A stretch of 37,516 nucleotides of DNA from Lachnospiraceae bacterium UBA7026 (GTDB lineage: Bacteria; Bacillota; Clostridia; Lachnospirales; Lachnospiraceae): NCBI GenBank assembly GCA_002494165.1, contig DLBH01000059.1, forward strand, positions 1-37,516, read 5' to 3'. Shown in pieces: positions 19,156 through 36,825 of this stretch. Position numbers and translations under genes: made by a program. Numbering within the stretch: the first letter of the stretch is position 1; each line of letters opens with the position of its first letter. The notes under the pieces were generated by a model, which saw only the letters and a program-made list of their open reading frames with translations, was not told where the DNA came from and ran no database searches.

Positions 19156-20559
19156 ATGTTTGAATTTTTAAATCCCGGCAAAAAAAAGAAGGGTCAGCTG
19201 GGATTGAAAATTATTATTGTAGGATGTGGAAAGGTTGGCATTACGCTGGTGGAGAGACTGAGCCGGGAGGGTCATGATATCACCATTATAGATCAGGAGG
19301 GAACTGTCGTCACCGAGATTGCCAACCTTTATGACGTGATGGGCATCATGGGCAATGGTGCCAGCTACAGTGTACAGATGGAAGCAGGGATTGATGAGGC
19401 AGACCTGATCATAGCAGTTACTGAGTCGGATGAGCTCAACCTGCTCTGTTGTACCATAGCCAGGAGGGTAGGCCATTGCGCCGCCATAGCCAGGGTCCGC
19501 ACACCGGACTATAATATAGAGTCCGACTACCTTAGGGATAAACTGGACCTGGCTATGATTATCAACCCGGAACTGGAGGCTTCCAGGGAGGCGGCCAGAA
19601 TCCTTTTGCTGCCATCTGCCCTGGAGGTGAATTCCTTCGCCCATGGCCAGGCGGAAATGATCAAGTTCCAGGTTCCCGAGGGGAATATCATGCATGGGAA
19701 AACGGTGTCGGGGCTCCGTAAGGAACTGCGGTCAGAAGTCCTGATCTGTGCCATAGAGAGAGATGGGGAAGTCCACATCCCCGATGGTGAATTTATCATC
19801 CATGAGAATGATATCCTTTCCTTTGTGGCAACCAGGGAAGATACCATAGGCTTTTTTGACCATATCGGCTTTAAGACCAACAGGGTTAAGAATACCATGA
19901 TTATCGGCGGCGGCAAGGCAGCCTATTATCTGGCCAGCCAGCTGATCAAAATGGGTATAGGGGTCAAGATTATTGAGATTGACAAGGCCCGGTGCGAAAA
20001 GCTGTCCATCCTTCTGCCCAAGGCCATTATTATCAATGGTGACGGCACAGACCAGGACCTCCTGGAGGAGGAGGGCATCGAGTATGCCGAGTCCTTTGTC
20101 CCCCTTACCGGTATCGATGAGGAGAATATCCTGCTGACCCTCTATGCCAGACAGGTATCCCAGGCCAAGGTCATTACCAAGATCAACCGGATCAATTTTA
20201 AGGATGTGATCTCCAACCTGGATCTGGGCAGTGTCCTCTATCCCCGCTATATAACCTCGGAGGCGATCATCGCCTATGTCAGGGCCAAGACCAATTCCAC
20301 CAGCAATAATATTGAGACCTTGTATCACATGTTTGACCACCGGGTGGAGGCCATCGAGTTCCATGTGGCAGAAGAGTCGGAGATTACGAATGTGCCCCTT
20401 AAAGATCTGAAGCTGAAAAAAGATATGCTGCTGTGTTTCATCAGCAGAAATGAAAAGATTATTATACCCGGCGGCCATGACCGGATTCTCAAGGGTGACA
20501 CAGTAATGGTGGTTACCAGGGATACCGGCTTTAATGACATCAGAGACATACTGGAATAG
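19156..20559 (+). CDS. trkA: Trk-type potassium uptake regulatory subunit
   Basis: This cytosolic NAD(H)/nucleotide-binding gating ring protein binds the membrane subunit TrkH and controls K+ uptake. Two RCK units are visible in 467 residues: the first Rossmann motif IIIVGCGKVGITLVERL with acidic strand end IIDQEG, and the second MIIGGGKAAYYLASQL with IIEID. Each is followed by a RCK-C lobe. ATG 19156 is chosen because GGAGGA is 10 bases upstream; a TTG at 19138 is in frame but poor. trkH follows after 11 bp, so the two are co-translated. Confidence 0.93.
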   Translation: MFEFLNPGKKKKGQLGLKIIIVGCGKVGITLVERLSREGHDITIIDQEGTVVTEIANLYDVMGIMGNGASYSVQMEAGIDEADLIIAVTESDELNLLCCTIARRVGHCAAIARVRTPDYNIESDYLRDKLDLAMIINPELEASREAARILLLPSALEVNSFAHGQAEMIKFQVPEGNIMHGKTVSGLRKELRSEVLICAIERDGEVHIPDGEFIIHENDILSFVATREDTIGFFDHIGFKTNRVKNTMIIGGGKAAYYLASQLIKMGIGVKIIEIDKARCEKLSILLPKAIIINGDGTDQDLLEEEGIEYAESFVPLTGIDEENILLTLYARQVSQAKVITKINRINFKDVISNLDLGSVLYPRYITSEAIIAYVRAKTNSTSNNIETLYHMFDHRVEAIEFHVAEESEITNVPLKDLKLKKDMLLCFISRNEKIIIPGGHDRILKGDTVMVVTRDTGFNDIRDILE

Positions 20560-20570
20560 CGGAGGTCACC

Positions 20571-22058
20571 ATGAACAGTTCAATCGTTCGGATTATAGTC
20601 GGCCAGGTTTTGAAGGTTGAGGCGGCCCTGCTGCTGCTTCCCTGTATGACTGCCCTGGTTTACCAGGAGAGGGCAGGCTGGTATTATCTGCTGACTGCGG
20701 CCATATGCCTGGCTGTTGGTTTTATATTTACATTAAGAAAGTCGAAAAACGATGTCTTTTACCTGAAGGAGGGCTGTGCGGCCACGGCTTTAAGCTGGAT
20801 TTTCCTCAGTATTTTCGGGGCCCTGCCCTTTTATATTTCAGGGGAGATTCCTTCCTATATTGACGCTCTTTTCGAGACCGTATCCGGCTTTACCACCACC
20901 GGGTCCAGCATCCTGAGTGATGTGGAAGTCCTGTCAAGGACAGCCCTTTTCTGGCGCAGCTTTACCCATTGGGTAGGGGGCATGGGAGTCCTTGTGTTCC
21001 TCCTGGCCATCATCCCTTTGAGCGGAGGCAGCAACTTTAATCTCATGAAGGCGGAAAGCCCGGGTCCCTCCGTAGGCAAGCTGGTGCCCAAGGTGGCTTA
21101 CACAGCCAGGATTTTGTATACCATTTATCTGGGAATCTCCATTCTGGAGCTGGTTCTTTTGCTCCTTGGAGGCATGACGGTCTATGAGGCCCTCCTGACC
21201 ACCTTTGGAACAGCGGGAACTGGAGGTTTTGGTTTCCTCAATTCCAGTATGGCCAGTTTTTCACCCTACCTGCAGTGGGTGATTACCATATTTATGATTC
21301 TCTTTGGCGTCAATTTCAACGCCTACTATTTCATCTTGTTCAAGAAGGCCAAAAAGGCATTTCAGATGGAGGAGGTCAGGGCTTATTTCCTCATTATTCT
21401 GGCGGCTGTAGCCATGATCACGGGAGACCTTGTAAGGACCATGGATTTCTCCAATGCTCTGCGGACCTCGGCCTTCCAGGTGGGTTCCATCATTACTACC
21501 ACTGGTTTTTCCACCGCGGACTTTAATGTCTGGTCTCAGACCAGCAGAACCATCCTGGTACTCCTGATGTTCATCGGTGCCTGCGCCGGTTCCACCGGAG
21601 GAGGAATCAAGGTCTCCAGGATTCTTGTCCTCATTAAGACCATGCTCAAAGAGCTTAATTCCTTTCTCCATCCCAAGAGTATCAAGAAGATTAAGATGGA
21701 TGGCAAACCCATAGAGCATGAAGTGGTCAGGGCAACCAATGTATTTTTCTGCACCTACATGATGCTTTTTGCCATATCCGTCCTCCTGATTTCCCTGGAG
21801 GGCCATGACCTGGTAACTAATTTTACGGCCGTCGCCGCCACCTTCAATAATATAGGTCCCGGCCTGGAGCTGGTTGGCCCGGCGGCAAACTTTGGTTTTA
21901 TGAATTCTTTCTCCAAGATTGTCTTGATTTTTGACATGCTGGCCGGAAGGCTGGAACTCTTTCCCCTCCTGATCCTTTGTCATCCTGTCCTGTGGAAGGA
22001 AGTGATCAGCCGGAAAAGTAAAATTGTCCAGAGCAGAAATCTTGACAGGAAATATTAA
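20571..22058 (+). CDS. trkH: Trk-type potassium uptake membrane subunit
   Basis: This K+-translocating membrane protein of the TrkH/KtrB superfamily has 495 residues. Four pore loops are recognisable by their filter glycines: VSGFTTTGSS, FGTAGTGGFGF, ITTTGFSTADF and NNIGPGLE. Hydrophobic membrane segments surround them, from residue 8 to the end. CGGAGGT precedes the ATG. It acts with TrkA directly upstream. The last 17 bases of the gene carry the -35 box of the next promoter. Confidence 0.95.
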   Translation: MNSSIVRIIVGQVLKVEAALLLLPCMTALVYQERAGWYYLLTAAICLAVGFIFTLRKSKNDVFYLKEGCAATALSWIFLSIFGALPFYISGEIPSYIDALFETVSGFTTTGSSILSDVEVLSRTALFWRSFTHWVGGMGVLVFLLAIIPLSGGSNFNLMKAESPGPSVGKLVPKVAYTARILYTIYLGISILELVLLLLGGMTVYEALLTTFGTAGTGGFGFLNSSMASFSPYLQWVITIFMILFGVNFNAYYFILFKKAKKAFQMEEVRAYFLIILAAVAMITGDLVRTMDFSNALRTSAFQVGSIITTTGFSTADFNVWSQTSRTILVLLMFIGACAGSTGGGIKVSRILVLIKTMLKELNSFLHPKSIKKIKMDGKPIEHEVVRATNVFFCTYMMLFAISVLLISLEGHDLVTNFTAVAATFNNIGPGLELVGPAANFGFMNSFSKIVLIFDMLAGRLELFPLLILCHPVLWKEVISRKSKIVQSRNLDRKY

Positions 22059-22070
22059 TTAGAGTATACT
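22042..22070 (+). promoter_or_regulatory. Near-consensus promoter for a structured leader or small RNA
   Basis: A perfect TTGACA (22042-22047), 17-bp spacer and TATACT (22065-22070). The -35 lies in the last codons of trkH. Transcription should begin near 22077, before the rod-like hairpin. This is among the best promoter matches in the window. Confidence 0.7.
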
Positions 22071-22081
22071 AACTTTAGTAT
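22066..22081 (+). promoter_or_regulatory. Palindromic operator over the -10 box
   Basis: ATACTAA-CT-TTAGTAT is a perfect 7-2-7 dyad that covers the -10 box and the predicted transcription start. A bound repressor would block polymerase. Its TTAGT/ACTAA half-sites recur at 18081-18100 and 22179-22203. Confidence 0.6.
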
Positions 22082-22092
22082 TATGCACATAA

Positions 22093-22178
22093 CATACTCA
22101 TAGCAATCTGCCTCCCCTTAGGGGGATGGCAGGCTATCAGTATGGGTAAAAGGTTTGCCTGAGGGGCATTTTATTTTT
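22093..22178 (+). ncRNA. Candidate switching RNA leader or small RNA
   Basis: A long rod can form: CATACT (22093-22098) with AGTATG (22139-22144), ATAGC (22100-22104) with GCTAT (22133-22137), CTGCC (22108-22112) with GGCAG (22128-22132), and TCCCC (22113-22117) with GGGGA (22122-22126). An alternative pairing uses CCCCTTAGG (22114-22122) with CCTGAGGGG (22158-22166), nine pairs including one G-U, directly before CATTTTATTTTTATT. The two folds exclude each other, as in attenuators and riboswitches. I do not recognise a known class. It could also be an independent small RNA ending in the U-rich tract. Confidence 0.5.
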
Positions 22179-22203
22179 ATTAGTTAGGTTTGGTACGACT
22201 AAT
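22179..22203 (+). promoter_or_regulatory. Inverted repeat before the Fur-like gene
   Basis: ATTAGT (22179-22184) and ACTAAT (22198-22203) flank 13 bases. The left side reads ATTAGTTAGG exactly as at 18081-18090. It could be a protein-binding site or an RNA hairpin, since it lies within the presumed leader. Confidence 0.4.
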
Positions 22204-22272
22204 TTTTATTAAAGGCTTCTAATCAAAGATGTTTTTATTGGGAAGCCAGGCTTGGAAAGAGGTTGATTGAAG

Positions 22273-22743
22273 ATGCAGATGACAGCAGCTAAAGAACTTG
22301 AGATAAACAATGTGGATTTTCATCATACTAATATGCAGCGTGATATCATTTTGCAGCAGCTTAAGGCCAGAGGATGCCGGATTACCAAACAGAGGAAGAT
22401 GCTCCTTGATGTCATTCTTAATGAAGACTGCTCCAGCTGTAAGGAGATATATTACAAGGCCGCCATGAAGGATAAACATATCGGGACAGCCACGGTTTAC
22501 CGGATGATTAATATCCTTGAGGAAATCGGTGCTATCAACCGGAAAAATATGTATAAGATTGCCTGTGGTCCCGAGTGCGAGGTTAAAGATGCCTGCGTTA
22601 TCGAGTTCGACGACCAGACTGTCATAGAGCTGACGGGAAAGACCTGGAATAATGTGGTTCAGGAAGGCCTTGCGGCCATGGGCTACCCGGTTAATTCCAG
22701 AATAAAAAGTGTCACTGTCAAGTCCTGTGAGTTTTCCAGGTAA
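22273..22743 (+). CDS. Fur-family transcriptional regulator with atypical metal-site region
   Basis: The N-terminal half is a Fur-type winged helix: GCRITKQRKMLLDVILNE, CKEIYYKA and the recognition helix GTATVYRMINILEEIGAINR. The dimerisation half keeps VIEFDDQTVIEL, but the usual HHHH-LxC-xxCG segment is replaced by MYKIACGPECEVKDAC, so canonical histidine metal ligands are absent and only a Cys cluster (Cys98, 102, 108) remains. It has 156 residues. ATG 22273 has AGAGG about 10 bases upstream; a TTG at 22267 and ATG at 22279 are alternatives. It stands behind trkAH and a structured leader and is closed by a strong terminator. Confidence 0.8.
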   Translation: MQMTAAKELEINNVDFHHTNMQRDIILQQLKARGCRITKQRKMLLDVILNEDCSSCKEIYYKAAMKDKHIGTATVYRMINILEEIGAINRKNMYKIACGPECEVKDACVIEFDDQTVIELTGKTWNNVVQEGLAAMGYPVNSRIKSVTVKSCEFSR

Positions 22744-22757
22744 GACCTTTTCCCTTT

Positions 22758-22775
22758 CCCGGGACAGTTCCCGGG
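22758..22775 (+). other. Short hairpin behind the Fur-like gene
   Basis: CCCGGGA (22758-22764) pairs perfectly with TCCCGGG (22769-22775), with a four-base loop. It is not followed by T residues. It may protect the 3' end of the transcript. Confidence 0.5.
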
Positions 22776-22816
22776 CTTCAGGTATATGTGAGAAGCATTC
22801 ATAGACAGATCATAGT

Positions 22817-22857
22817 CGCCGGTTCCCATCCCCCAGGGGTTCCGGCGGTTTTTTTTT
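22817..22857 (+). terminator. Strong intrinsic terminator of the Fur-like gene
   Basis: CGCCGG (22817-22822) pairs with CCGGCG (22842-22847), with inner C-run/G-run pairing, and a run of eight or more T follows. It lies about 75 bases behind the stop codon. The rest of the 345-base gap 22744-23088 holds the promoter of hydF. A 66-codon open frame here runs through the terminator and is not believed to be a gene. Confidence 0.85.
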
Positions 22858-22965
22858 GTCTCTTAATAACTCTTGTTTCTAAGTACCTGCTCTCTCTGGG
22901 ATTTCTTGTTGTCACCCTGTTTAAAATGGTCCAGCACTTTCTGTTGGCGGCCCCTATCCTTTTCA

Positions 22966-22994
22966 TTGCTTTGTGGAGCCGGATGTAATATATT
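22966..22994 (+). promoter_or_regulatory. Promoter of hydF
   Basis: TTGCTT (22966-22971), 17-bp spacer and TATATT (22989-22994), about 95 bases before the start codon and behind the preceding terminator. Confidence 0.5.
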
Positions 22995-23088
22995 AAGTTA
23001 AAGAATTCCTTCTGATGACTGGAGTATGACATCCGGAGCAGTTTTCCGGCCGCTGTCATAAAATGAGAAAGGGAAAGAGGACAAAATT

Positions 23089-24288
23089 ATGGGATTAAAT
23101 GATACACCTTCGGGAGAGCGCCTGCATATCGGTTTTTTCGGACAGAGGAATGCCGGCAAGTCCAGCCTGGTAAATGCTGTGACCGGCCAGGAGCTGGCTG
23201 TGGTTTCAGACCGGAAGGGGACTACTACAGACCCGGTTTACAAGGCCATGGAGCTGCTGCCCCTGGGGCCGGTGATGATCATAGATACGCCTGGTTATGA
23301 CGATTCCGGTGATCTGGGAGAACTTCGTGTCAAAAAGACCAGGGAGATCCTGGACCGGACTGACCTGGCAGTCCTGGTGGTAGATGCGGGCCGGGGCCTG
23401 GTCAGTGAGGACCGGGAACTGGTGGACCTTTTCCAGGGAAAAAAGATTACTTATCTTATTGTTTTTAATAAAGAGGACCTGATGACCCAGGCCCCTCAGG
23501 CTGATGCCTTTTATGTCAGTGCCCTGACAGGCCGGGGGGTTCATGAACTCAAGGAAAGAATGGCGGCCCTGGCTTTGAAGGCAGGCAGGGACAGGCAGGA
23601 AAGATCCCTTGTCCGGGACCTGCTGGCTCCCGCCGCCCTGGCAGTCCTGGTCATTCCCATCGATTCCGCCGCCCCCAGGGGCCGGATCATCCTGCCCCAG
23701 CAGCAGGTCCTCCGGGATATCCTGGACGGGGACAGGATGGCAGTATGTGTTAAGGAAAGCCAGCTGCAGGACCTGCTTGACCGTTTGCCGGCAGACCCGG
23801 ATATGGTGATTACTGACAGCCAGGTCTTTGAGCAGGTGGCTGCCATAGTTCCTGACCGGGTGCCCCTTACTTCTTTTTCCATTCTCATGGCCAGGTACAA
23901 GGGCTTTCTGGAGACCGCTGTGGCCGGCTGCCGGCAGATCGACCGGCTCAGGGACGGAGACCGGATTCTGATTTCGGAAGGTTGTACCCACCATCGGCAA
24001 TGTGATGATATTGGTACCGTAAAGCTGCCCCGCTGGCTGCGCCAGTATACGGGTAAGGACCTCATTATCGAAACCAGTTCAGGCAGGGAATTTCCCCGGG
24101 ACCTGACCAGCTATGCCCTGGTAATCCATTGCGGTGCCTGTATGTTAAACCCAAGAGAGCTTAAGACCAGGGAAGGCCTGGCGGTGAAGGAGGGGGTCCC
24201 CTTCACCAATTACGGGATAGCCATAGCCCATATGAAGGGAATTCTGGAAAGAAGCATCAGGGAAGTGCTGCCGTTTTCAGAGGCCTGA
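23089..24288 (+). CDS. hydF: [FeFe] hydrogenase maturation GTPase HydF
   Basis: HydF is the scaffold that receives the 2Fe subcluster made by HydE and HydG and delivers it to apo-HydA. The GTPase part shows P-loop GQRNAGKSS (residues 18-26), GTTTDPV, DTPGYDD and NKEDL. The C-terminal [4Fe-4S] ligand motifs are EGCTHHRQCDDIG and HCGACM. At 399 residues the length is standard. AGAGGA is the ribosome binding site. HydE, HydG and the hydrogenase are not in the window. Its presence implies anaerobic H2 metabolism. Confidence 0.95.
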   Translation: MGLNDTPSGERLHIGFFGQRNAGKSSLVNAVTGQELAVVSDRKGTTTDPVYKAMELLPLGPVMIIDTPGYDDSGDLGELRVKKTREILDRTDLAVLVVDAGRGLVSEDRELVDLFQGKKITYLIVFNKEDLMTQAPQADAFYVSALTGRGVHELKERMAALALKAGRDRQERSLVRDLLAPAALAVLVIPIDSAAPRGRIILPQQQVLRDILDGDRMAVCVKESQLQDLLDRLPADPDMVITDSQVFEQVAAIVPDRVPLTSFSILMARYKGFLETAVAGCRQIDRLRDGDRILISEGCTHHRQCDDIGTVKLPRWLRQYTGKDLIIETSSGREFPRDLTSYALVIHCGACMLNPRELKTREGLAVKEGVPFTNYGIAIAHMKGILERSIREVLPFSEA

Positions 24289-24316
24289 TGCCTCTTGGTA
24301 TGCCCTTGTTCTCTTA

Positions 24317-24345
24317 TTGAATAATCATAATCACTGTGATAGAAT
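24317..24345 (+). promoter_or_regulatory. Promoter of the STAS/HATPase pair
   Basis: TTGAAT (24317-24322), 17-bp spacer and TAGAAT (24340-24345) with a TG extension (TG-A-TAGAAT). It lies 75 bases before the STAS gene. A weak hairpin, AGAGGC-CTGAT-GCCTCT (24279-24295), spans the hydF stop just upstream. Confidence 0.6.
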
Positions 24346-24419
24346 GGGATGAGATTTACATAATTATCCTATAGTTGCTAGTATCCTGTAGTCACTATAT
24401 ATATGAGAGGAGCAGCCTT

Positions 24420-24716
24420 ATGACAATCGATAAAAAGCTTAATGGAACATCTCTTGTGATCGCTTTGGAAGGACGTCTTGATACCATGACATCCCCCCAG
24501 TTAGAAGAAGAGCTGAAGACATCTTTAGAAGGAATTACTGACCTGACCTTCGATTTTGAGAAGCTTGAGTATATTTCTTCCGCAGGTCTCAGGGTTCTTC
24601 TGTATGCCCAGAAGGTGATGAATAAACAGGGCAGCATGAAGGTGATCCATGCCAGTGAGCCGGTCCTTGATGTCTTTGATGTTACCGGTTTTGTAGATAT
24701 TCTTACCATCGAATAA
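24420..24716 (+). CDS. Anti-sigma factor antagonist (STAS domain)
   Basis: This 98-residue protein is of the SpoIIAA/RsbV type. In this family the unphosphorylated antagonist binds an anti-sigma kinase and frees the sigma factor. The pattern LVIALEGRLDTMTSPQLEEEL, then LEYISSAGLRVLL, carries the conserved phosphorylatable Ser (Ser53/Ser54). ATG 24420 is selected because GAGAGGAG lies just upstream; an upstream in-frame TTG/CTG extension has no site. The HATPase gene is 76 bp downstream and is its probable partner. Confidence 0.9.
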   Translation: MTIDKKLNGTSLVIALEGRLDTMTSPQLEEELKTSLEGITDLTFDFEKLEYISSAGLRVLLYAQKVMNKQGSMKVIHASEPVLDVFDVTGFVDILTIE

Positions 24717-24755
24717 GCAGTTTTGAAAGTCTTCTTTCCTGACCGGGAAGAGGGA

Positions 24756-24778
24756 GGCGCCCCTTGCTTTCAGGCGCC
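24756..24778 (+). promoter_or_regulatory. Intercistronic hairpin touching the HATPase ribosome binding site
   Basis: GGCGCC (24756-24761) can pair with GGCGCC (24773-24778), with an 11-base loop. GGGAGG (24779-24784) begins directly at its 3' foot. It may set the ratio of antagonist to kinase. Confidence 0.45.
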
Positions 24779-24792
24779 GGGAGGATTTGGTT

Positions 24793-25209
24793 ATGACGTC
24801 ACTGACAGTTAAAGCCCATATTTCTAATCTTTCCATGGTCCAGGCGGCTCTCGAAGAGTGGCTGGATACCATTGGCTGTCCCATGAAGATTTCCCTGCAG
24901 CTGCAGATGGCTGTGGAGGAACTATTTGTCAATGTGGCCAGCTATGCCTACGGGGAAGGGGAGGGCGACCTGACCTTGACCTTTGACTACGAGGAGGAAT
25001 TATCCCTGGTCAGGATCAGCTTCAGGGACCAGGGGATGCCCTTTAATCCCGCTGAGTGCCTTGAGAAAGAGGAGGAATCCACCAGACTGCAGGTGGAGGA
25101 CAGAGGAGTCGGCGGTCTGGGTATCCTGATGGTATACAAGACGGCAGACCAGGTGCATTACAGCTACCAGGACGGATGGAATATTCTGACCCTGGAAAAG
25201 AAACTGTGA
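24793..25209 (+). CDS. Anti-sigma factor serine kinase-like HATPase (RsbW/SpoIIAB type)
   Basis: This 138-residue GHKL ATPase has N-box MAVEELFVNVASYAYG, G1 box FRDQGMPFNP and G2-like GVGGLGILMV. In the family such proteins phosphorylate the STAS partner and hold a sigma factor or other client. ATG 24793 is preferred because GGGAGG is 8 bases upstream; a TTG at 24787 adds two residues. No sigma factor or PP2C phosphatase is in the neighbourhood, so the client is unknown. The ABC-F gene follows after 22 bp. Confidence 0.88.
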   Translation: MTSLTVKAHISNLSMVQAALEEWLDTIGCPMKISLQLQMAVEELFVNVASYAYGEGEGDLTLTFDYEEELSLVRISFRDQGMPFNPAECLEKEEESTRLQVEDRGVGGLGILMVYKTADQVHYSYQDGWNILTLEKKL

Positions 25210-25231
25210 CAAGGTATTTGTATTAATTAAT

Positions 25232-27100
25232 ATGTTATATCAGATCAGACAAGGATCAGTTTCGCTGGGCGGCGAGCTGGTCCTCAATCATGTGAATTTT
25301 GAGATTAAACATCATGAAAAAATAGCCCTGGTAGGGGCTAACGGGGCTGGTAAGACCACCTTGCTACGGCTCATAGCCTCGGAGCTGACTCCCGATAGGG
25401 ATGACAGTCTCTTCCTGCCCCAGGTATGGATGGCAGAGCAGGTGACAGTGGGTTTTCTGCCCCAGCATCCTTTTGAGGATGATGAGGTCCGGGTCCAGGA
25501 GATCATGGATCAGCTTTTCTCGGGTCTTGACTTCCATTCCAGAGACTACTATGACAAGAGGATGGAGTATGACCGGATCCTGACCGGCTTTGGTTTTGAC
25601 AAGACAGACGTAAAGAAGAAGATCGGAGCTTTCTCCGGCGGGGAGAGGACCAAGCTGGCCCTGATCCGTCTTCTAATGGAGAGACCGGATATCCTCCTTT
25701 TAGATGAGCCCACCAACCACCTGGACCTGGATTCAGTCAGGTGGCTGGAGGATTATATCAGGAATTATCCTAAGGCCGTGATCATAGTATCCCATGACCG
25801 TTATTTCCTCGATGAGACAGTGGAGCTGGTCTATGAACTGCAGGATGGCCGTCTTGAAAGATACGCCGGTAATTACACTGCCTACAGGGAACAAAAGAAG
25901 AAAAAACTGGAGAAATGGGCCAGACGCTTTAAGGCCCAGCAGAAGGAGATCCAGGAGACGAAGGACCTGATCGCCCGCTTCCGCCACAAGCCGAGGAAGG
26001 CTTCTATGGTAAAAAGCAGGAAAAGGATGCTGGACCGGATGGATCTGATCGATCCTCCGCCCCTCAGTGACAGCCACAGCTTTTCCGGCAAGATCGAGCC
26101 GGAGGTCCGGGGCAGCAAGCTGGTCCTGGAGACAGATCATCTGAAGATCGGCTATGACCGTGTCCTGGCAGAGATCAGCCTGGCAGTAAAAAGGGGCAGG
26201 AAGATCGGAATCCTGGGGCCTAACGGCATCGGCAAAAGCACCTTTCTGGCTACGGTCTGCGGCAGAGTTCCCAGTCTGGGCGGCGACTGCCGGATGGGAG
26301 CCTCCATCCGCTATGGCTGGTTCGACCAGTTTTCGGGACAGTTCAAAGAGGCCGAGACAGATCTTACGGTTTTTGAATATATGAGTAAATGTTTTCCCCA
26401 GAAGGAGGGCAGGGAGATCCGCCAGCTGCTGGCAGACTACCTCTTCCGGGGCAGCCAGGCCGGACTCAGACTGGCTGACCTGTCTGGAGGAGAAAGCTGC
26501 CGGCTGGTCCTGGCCAGGATTCTGGAGGAAAGGCCCAACCTGCTGCTGCTGGATGAGCCTACCAACCACATGGATATCCCGGCCCGGGAGACTATGGAGT
26601 CAGCCTTCAGGGCCTACAGCGGCACCATCCTCTTCATATCCCATGACCGGTATTTTATCCGGGAAGTGGCAGACTCTCTGCTGATTTTTGGGGAAGAAGG
26701 AGTCAGTTATTACCCCTTTGGCTATGACCATTACATGGAGAGGGAGAAAAAAAGAGAAGATAACAGTTACCAGGGCCTGTCCCCGGTACAGGTGGAAAAT
26801 ACCCTGCTGATTGAGGCCCTTAAGGCAGTCCCGGATCGGGAGCGTCACCAGACTTCCCGTTACAGCACAGACCAGTCCTTTACCGAGTGGGAGCTGGACC
26901 TGGCCCTGCAAGCCATGACAGAGGCCCGGGCAGACCTGCTGGCCAATGAGGAGGTCGGTTTTAATGCCGGGACTGTTGAGGCCTGGCTGGCAGCCAGGGA
27001 AGATGATTATCAGGAACTTTATGACCAGTGGACCCGGACATGTCTTGACTGGTATGAAAAATGGATGGCCTGGGAGGAAGCCTTTAAAGGGTATCAATAA
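25232..27100 (+). CDS. ABC-F family ATPase
   Basis: This 622-residue soluble protein has two ABC domains and no membrane segments. Domain 1: Walker A GANGAGKTT (about 35-43), signature FSGGERTKLAL, Walker B LLLDEPTNHLD. The charged linker around residues 215-270 (KKKKLEKWARRFKAQQKE) is the P-site tRNA interaction motif region. Domain 2: GPNGIGKST (about 328), LSGGESCRLVL, LLLDEPTNHMD. A C-terminal extension of about 110 residues is acidic and tryptophan-rich. Family members act on the ribosome in translation control or antibiotic protection; which role applies here cannot be read from the sequence. A weak ribosome site (AAGGTATTT) precedes the ATG. Confidence 0.92.
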   Translation: MLYQIRQGSVSLGGELVLNHVNFEIKHHEKIALVGANGAGKTTLLRLIASELTPDRDDSLFLPQVWMAEQVTVGFLPQHPFEDDEVRVQEIMDQLFSGLDFHSRDYYDKRMEYDRILTGFGFDKTDVKKKIGAFSGGERTKLALIRLLMERPDILLLDEPTNHLDLDSVRWLEDYIRNYPKAVIIVSHDRYFLDETVELVYELQDGRLERYAGNYTAYREQKKKKLEKWARRFKAQQKEIQETKDLIARFRHKPRKASMVKSRKRMLDRMDLIDPPPLSDSHSFSGKIEPEVRGSKLVLETDHLKIGYDRVLAEISLAVKRGRKIGILGPNGIGKSTFLATVCGRVPSLGGDCRMGASIRYGWFDQFSGQFKEAETDLTVFEYMSKCFPQKEGREIRQLLADYLFRGSQAGLRLADLSGGESCRLVLARILEERPNLLLLDEPTNHMDIPARETMESAFRAYSGTILFISHDRYFIREVADSLLIFGEEGVSYYPFGYDHYMEREKKREDNSYQGLSPVQVENTLLIEALKAVPDRERHQTSRYSTDQSFTEWELDLALQAMTEARADLLANEEVGFNAGTVEAWLAAREDDYQELYDQWTRTCLDWYEKWMAWEEAFKGYQ

Positions 27101-36608: not shown

Positions 36609-36744
36609 CCCTTCCTGTCTGATCCTGGTCCAGTCTGTTTTTTGGCAGTTTGAGAATGATAGAATGAATTAAGAGCCTGCAAAATTAAAAGCCTGCAAGG
36701 TTATTGCAGGTTGGGAAAAGATTAAAAAGAGTTGTAGAAAAAAA

Positions 36745-36789
36745 GGGCAGCCCAAGGGGATCCATCTGATCAATCCCCTTGGGCTGCCC
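36745..36789. terminator. Long bidirectional terminator
   Basis: GGGCAGCCCAAGGGGAT (36745-36761) and ATCCCCTTGGGCTGCCC (36773-36789) form a perfect 17-bp stem with an 11-base loop. Seven A precede it, giving seven T on the minus strand, so it is strongest for the minus gene 36826-37038; TCTTATTAT on the plus side gives weaker termination for the kinase gene. Upstream, CCTGCAA-GGTTA-TTGCAGG (36692-36710) is another hairpin. Confidence 0.9.
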
Positions 36790-36825
36790 TCTTATTATCA
36801 CTTACATCTAATGTGAATAGTCGGA

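Follow-up and report, generated by a model that had tools for sequence, protein, structure and literature searches.

Genes and features of the locus

The window, that is, the whole stretch of 37,516 nucleotides that was analysed, corresponds to contig C23; the assembly to which it belongs has 2.33 Mb and is 83% complete. Along it, trkA and trkH are followed by a promoter and hairpin element, a Fur-like gene and hydF. The trkH gene occupies positions 20571 to 22058 of the + strand and encodes a TrkH potassium transporter (Pfam TrkH, 3.2e-60), and the open reading frame of the Fur-like gene lies on the same strand at 22273-22743, starting with ATG 22273 or, alternatively, with TTG 22267. A literature search that covered listings and the beginnings of abstracts returned no paper concerning this locus.

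Canonical members of the Fur family have a His-rich metal-binding dimerisation half. The protein encoded here has a Fur winged-helix domain at residues 35-95 (Pfam FUR, 6.8e-13), which places it in the family, and past about residue 95 neither Pfam nor the PDB gave a match. When 50 Fur-like sequences were aligned (at least 40% identical and at least 100 residues long, the window being present also as its own locus, L003), it could be seen that the second half has conserved cysteines, as C-x2-C and at other positions, and no His-rich motif like that of the canonical dimerisation half was seen. The protein and its relatives appear to be an atypical family in which the winged-helix half alone is recognisable and conserved cysteines replace the His-rich metal half. 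Among named organisms, the best match to the protein is in Anaerobutyricum hallii (77%; L023).

A promoter whose -10 element overlaps a palindrome

The initial annotation had placed a promoter, TTGACA-17-TATACT, between trkH and the Fur-like gene. It is present at 22042-22070 of the + strand and matches the consensus at 11 of 12 positions; counting both strands, only three sites in the whole window reach at least 11/12 at a spacing of 16-18. The last codons of trkH contain its -35 element, and its predicted start is near 22077. Overlapping the -10 element is a palindrome, ATTAGAGTATACTAAC (22058-22073), a putative operator that agrees with GTTAG-N6-CTAAC at 9 of 10 positions; we take this motif to be different from both the Fur box and the DtxR site. 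From the palindrome to TTG 22267 there are 193 bases in the window.

The same promoter and palindrome are found in relatives. After duplicates were merged there were 59 distinct loci of the Fur-like gene, with a near-identical copy standing for the window, and in 15 of these a palindrome (at least 9/10) occurs with a TTGACA-type -35 (at least 5/6) at the matching offset, a combination seen in none of 20 shuffles. The palindrome alone occurs 53 times in the relatives' loci, against 3.9 times per shuffle. Eleven of the 15 promoters, that of the near-identical copy among them, are within 320 bases of the gene and four are about 2.9 kb upstream; three of the distant ones (L051, L056 and L067, checked with Pfam) are just upstream of feoA. 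At the threshold used, this promoter is missing from the other 44 loci, in several cases owing to the little upstream sequence they have. A version of the promoter that is one base wider occurs in L059.

Gene order is also retained in part. In L024 the Fur-like gene is flanked by trkH (70% identity) and hydF, as in the window, and a strong terminator (-27.5) directly after trkH precedes the same promoter; trkH is likewise upstream in L014. The L024 leader, taken from the palindrome up to where the match begins, measures 54 bases and is without the rod described below. The leaders of the window and L024 have the 9-mer TACTCATAG in common, and 79 of 2000 shuffles have one by chance; as this is a weak anchor, we take the window's leader to be extended on the strength of its length rather than of a clean alignment. 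The relatives, with the same promoter and its palindrome over the -10, lend weight to the earlier suggestion that the stretch is a leader of the Fur-like gene, and, judged from sequence, the palindrome-bearing promoter is the feature that the locus shares with them.

A second element was noticed in 26 loci, hand-picked from 38 palindromes that have no -35. It consists of a run of 6-9 T, about 8-10 bases and then GTTAG-N6-CTAA(C/T), with the T-run occupying the place of the -35 in the other promoters, and the Fur-like gene usually follows about 2.3-2.9 kb downstream. Examples are at about 389 in L026, 712 in L051 and 414 in L058, where it stands between a FeoA and the FeoB gene; in L028 it is just upstream of the Fur-like gene. 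In the window, a candidate second operator was found by eye near 22188-22203 (9/10 positions), its T-run being misaligned with that of the relatives.

In the source genome, the only exact match to the motif is the site in the window. Near matches number 47, against 59 for the reversed pattern, and are thus no commoner; the genome's own feoA region has no site at 10/14 or better. These motif counts and the siteless feoA region would speak against a wide regulon in the source organism.

A stable rod and a weak terminator-like hairpin

Downstream of the predicted start, the 52-base rod of about 21 pairs that had been described earlier was recovered by folding, at 22093-22144 of the + strand with 21 pairs and -29.6 kcal/mol. 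The best fold of 22077-22181 consists of this rod and a small hairpin, at -39.3 kcal/mol (z -3.92), and none of 200 shuffles was equally stable. When stability was scanned in frames of 52 nt, the rod ranked with the window's most stable hairpins, other sites equalling or exceeding it. A 5' fragment ending at 22144 is predicted to form the complete rod already, before 22158-22166 is transcribed. A mini-ORF in the leader (22083-22103, MHITYS) begins about 6 nt after the predicted transcription start, and no Shine-Dalgarno sequence was seen for it. Elsewhere in the window, a long hairpin at 36741-36792 is very stable on both strands (-38.6 and -43.5 kcal/mol); on the - strand it has a T-run and makes a strong terminator-like site.

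Behind the rod, both the scan and the predicted fold gave a terminator-like hairpin with a T-rich tail (22156-22181, + strand), in which a five-pair stem runs into TTTTATTTTTATT. With TTTTATTTTT directly after the stem at 22156-22168, the site has the G+C-rich stem and immediate T-run of an intrinsic terminator, though it is weak at -4.5 kcal/mol (-7.9 for 22145-22181, with an A/U extension). Among 267 T-rich positions, neighbouring positions within one run being counted separately, it scored -4.5 or -5.6 and fell below the 40 strongest, the fortieth of which is at -7.7. The hairpin is also weaker than the window's clear terminators; one of these, at -16.9, follows the Fur-like gene at a distance of about 75 bases and ends near 22848. 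Because the hairpin is weak, termination at 22156-22181 is uncertain on the modelled energies. Between 22182 and 22266 no promoter-like site was scored on the + strand; expression of the Fur-like gene from 22042 would therefore need read-through, and this fits a leaky terminator.

In the region scanned, 22156-22181 is the first + strand terminator-like site scored after the trkH stop. The rod and the T-rich hairpin might accordingly be the terminator of the trkA-trkH operon, placed behind the promoter of the next gene by tight gene packing, and the strong terminator that directly follows trkH in L024 points the same way. However, a terminator in this position is downstream of the promoter and so would stop that promoter's transcripts too, and the hairpin is weak. 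We regard this explanation as possible, though on the unlikely side.

Distribution of the rod and terminator

In DNA searches the rod and terminator were found in two of 24 genomes of the same genus, the source genome and G021, and in none of the 11 genus genomes with a completeness of 90% or more and a contamination of 5% or less. Conservation among relatives, by which the initial annotation had suggested testing its proposal, comes down to this one copy, 98% alike, and the rod is absent from the other listed leaders of Fur-like genes. Between the two carriers, 2 of 105 bases differ: one is unpaired in the rod, and the other changes a U-A pair to U-G. We do not read their likeness as a sign of selection, as the pair is a mosaic, with anywhere from 0 to 20 differences in 100 bases, and the leader sits in a low-divergence block that is about as similar as the leader itself. 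Across 19200-25760, the window compared with L022, its nearest genome, has stretches with 0-2 differences per 100 bases alternating with stretches with 10-20, as from recombination.

A sample of 397 genomes of the family yielded the source genome and, in G249, 24 bases that match the terminator stretch. The terminator pattern was matched 30 times, in 29 of 299 genomes, these two included, against 15 times for the reversed pattern, and all matches beyond the two were at 3 mismatches; within the source genome the counts were 11 and 10 (reversed). Given these counts, we took the G249 match as similarity of terminator sequence and not as a homologue. Plasmids and phages, searched at blastn sensitivity, gave no match, and at that sensitivity a mobile origin of the element was set aside.

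A covariance model, R1, was built from the two near-identical sequences and is thus near to a single-sequence search. Over the 24 genus genomes, with E up to 1, it gave three matches, the third in G011 (E 0.405). Over the 397 family genomes, with E up to 0.01 and stricter filters that lose weak matches, it again gave three, of which those in G399 (E 0.005) and G278 (E 0.008) are at chance level, about four chance matches being expected at E 0.01 per genome. On 30 chosen sources (the window and 29 loci) it matched the window, one locus at E 0.73 and the window's own opposite strand (E 0.004), the last because the rod is nearly symmetrical. No match to the Fur-like protein was found at the R1 loci of G011, G399 and G278, or at L073; given this and the weak or chance-level E values, the three genomes' matches were rejected as homologues of the rod. 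L073, an unrelated family member, has an intergenic inverted repeat at about 1504-1694 whose ends carry TGCCTGAGGGGCATTTT in opposite orientation.

The element had originally been matched to no known class, and Rfam agrees: nothing reached the gathering score, and with E up to 10 a snoRNA alone appeared, at E = 9. Among the genomes searched, the rod and terminator were found only in the window's lineage and so appear to be lineage-specific.

A promoter with a putative operator, a stable rod and a terminator-like end would also suit a separate small RNA that acts in trans; it would be about 100 nt long, probably under iron control, and end at 22172-22181, with the Fur-like gene served from elsewhere. 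The element resembles the Gram-positive iron-responsive small RNAs FsrA and IsrR in its possibly iron-controlled promoter, its length of about 100 nt and its structured form. FsrA and IsrR expose a C-rich seed, whereas here the C-rich stretch, CCTCCCC, is buried by pairing inside the predicted rod stem and no relatives were found. Restriction to one lineage, the lack of an Rfam match and the placing of this promoter directly before the Fur-like gene in relatives also argue against a separate small RNA, which we consider improbable.

The alternative helix

The apical strand CCCCTTAGG (22114-22122, + strand) is paired inside the rod, and it had been proposed that it could instead pair over nine positions with CCTGAGGGG (22158-22166), ahead of CATTTTATTTTTATT. 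This complementarity exists in the sequence, with eight Watson-Crick pairs and one G-U. When the helix was enforced, however, the best fold was at -22.6 kcal/mol, 16.7 kcal/mol worse than -39.3; the probability of the alternative pairs is about 2e-11, and keeping 22114-22122 unpaired costs 11.9 kcal/mol. Among 1000 dinucleotide shuffles of 22145-22181, 460 formed a helix of at least nine pairs with the rod, as did 138 of 1003 unrelated 37-nt tiles; the best rod-tail duplex energy was equalled by 70 of the shuffles and 210 of the tiles. Such helices are frequent because of the near self-complementarity of the rod tip, CCCCTTAGGGG, with which AGGGG downstream will pair. Since a nine-pair helix is common by chance, the complementarity is no evidence of switching, and on energy and shuffles the helix was rejected as an antiterminator. 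The mutually exclusive folds of the initial annotation are not supported by these figures, and the two comparably stable exclusive folds of a riboswitch or switching attenuator are not seen here. A switch in which the rod and this helix alternate to control termination is most improbable: the complementarity is real and the helix would overlap the terminator hairpin, but the rod folds first, and the mini-ORF, through which a ribosome might in principle reach the base of the rod, lies close to the predicted start without a Shine-Dalgarno sequence.

Discussion

We conclude, with a probability of about one half, that the stretch is the operator-controlled promoter of the Fur-like gene together with a lineage-specific hairpin and a leaky terminator, without a switch. 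It would serve as the 5' leader of that gene, with transcription beginning at a promoter whose -10 element sits within a palindromic operator, to which the gene's own product or another iron-sensing repressor may bind. The window's lineage would carry a long extension of this leader, in which a stable hairpin is followed by a weak intrinsic terminator, the two not acting as a switch. Some transcripts from near 22077, and some read-through from trkAH, would stop near 22172-22181, yielding a stable RNA about 100 nt long, while the remaining transcripts would read through into the Fur-like gene.

Autoregulated metalloregulator promoters of the Fur/PerR/DtxR type exist. The locus resembles them in that a regulator gene stands behind a promoter with a palindrome over the -10, and in that the same palindrome is found at feoA promoters in the three relatives checked. 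With leaders that contain an intrinsic terminator it has in common the order of promoter, hairpin, T-rich terminator-like end and gene; it differs from leader attenuators in that no competing fold has weight, the terminator is weak and the arrangement is lineage-specific. A further and rather doubtful thought is that this is a young, lineage-restricted regulatory RNA: the metalloregulator promoter would have gained a hairpin-terminator cassette by which many of its transcripts become an iron-controlled RNA of about 100 nt, with the level of the regulator set by leaky termination.

The analysis removes a doubtful riboswitch candidate. It also points to the palindrome common to feo promoters and to this atypical, often FeoB-linked Fur-like family in Lachnospiraceae as a candidate binding site of the family.
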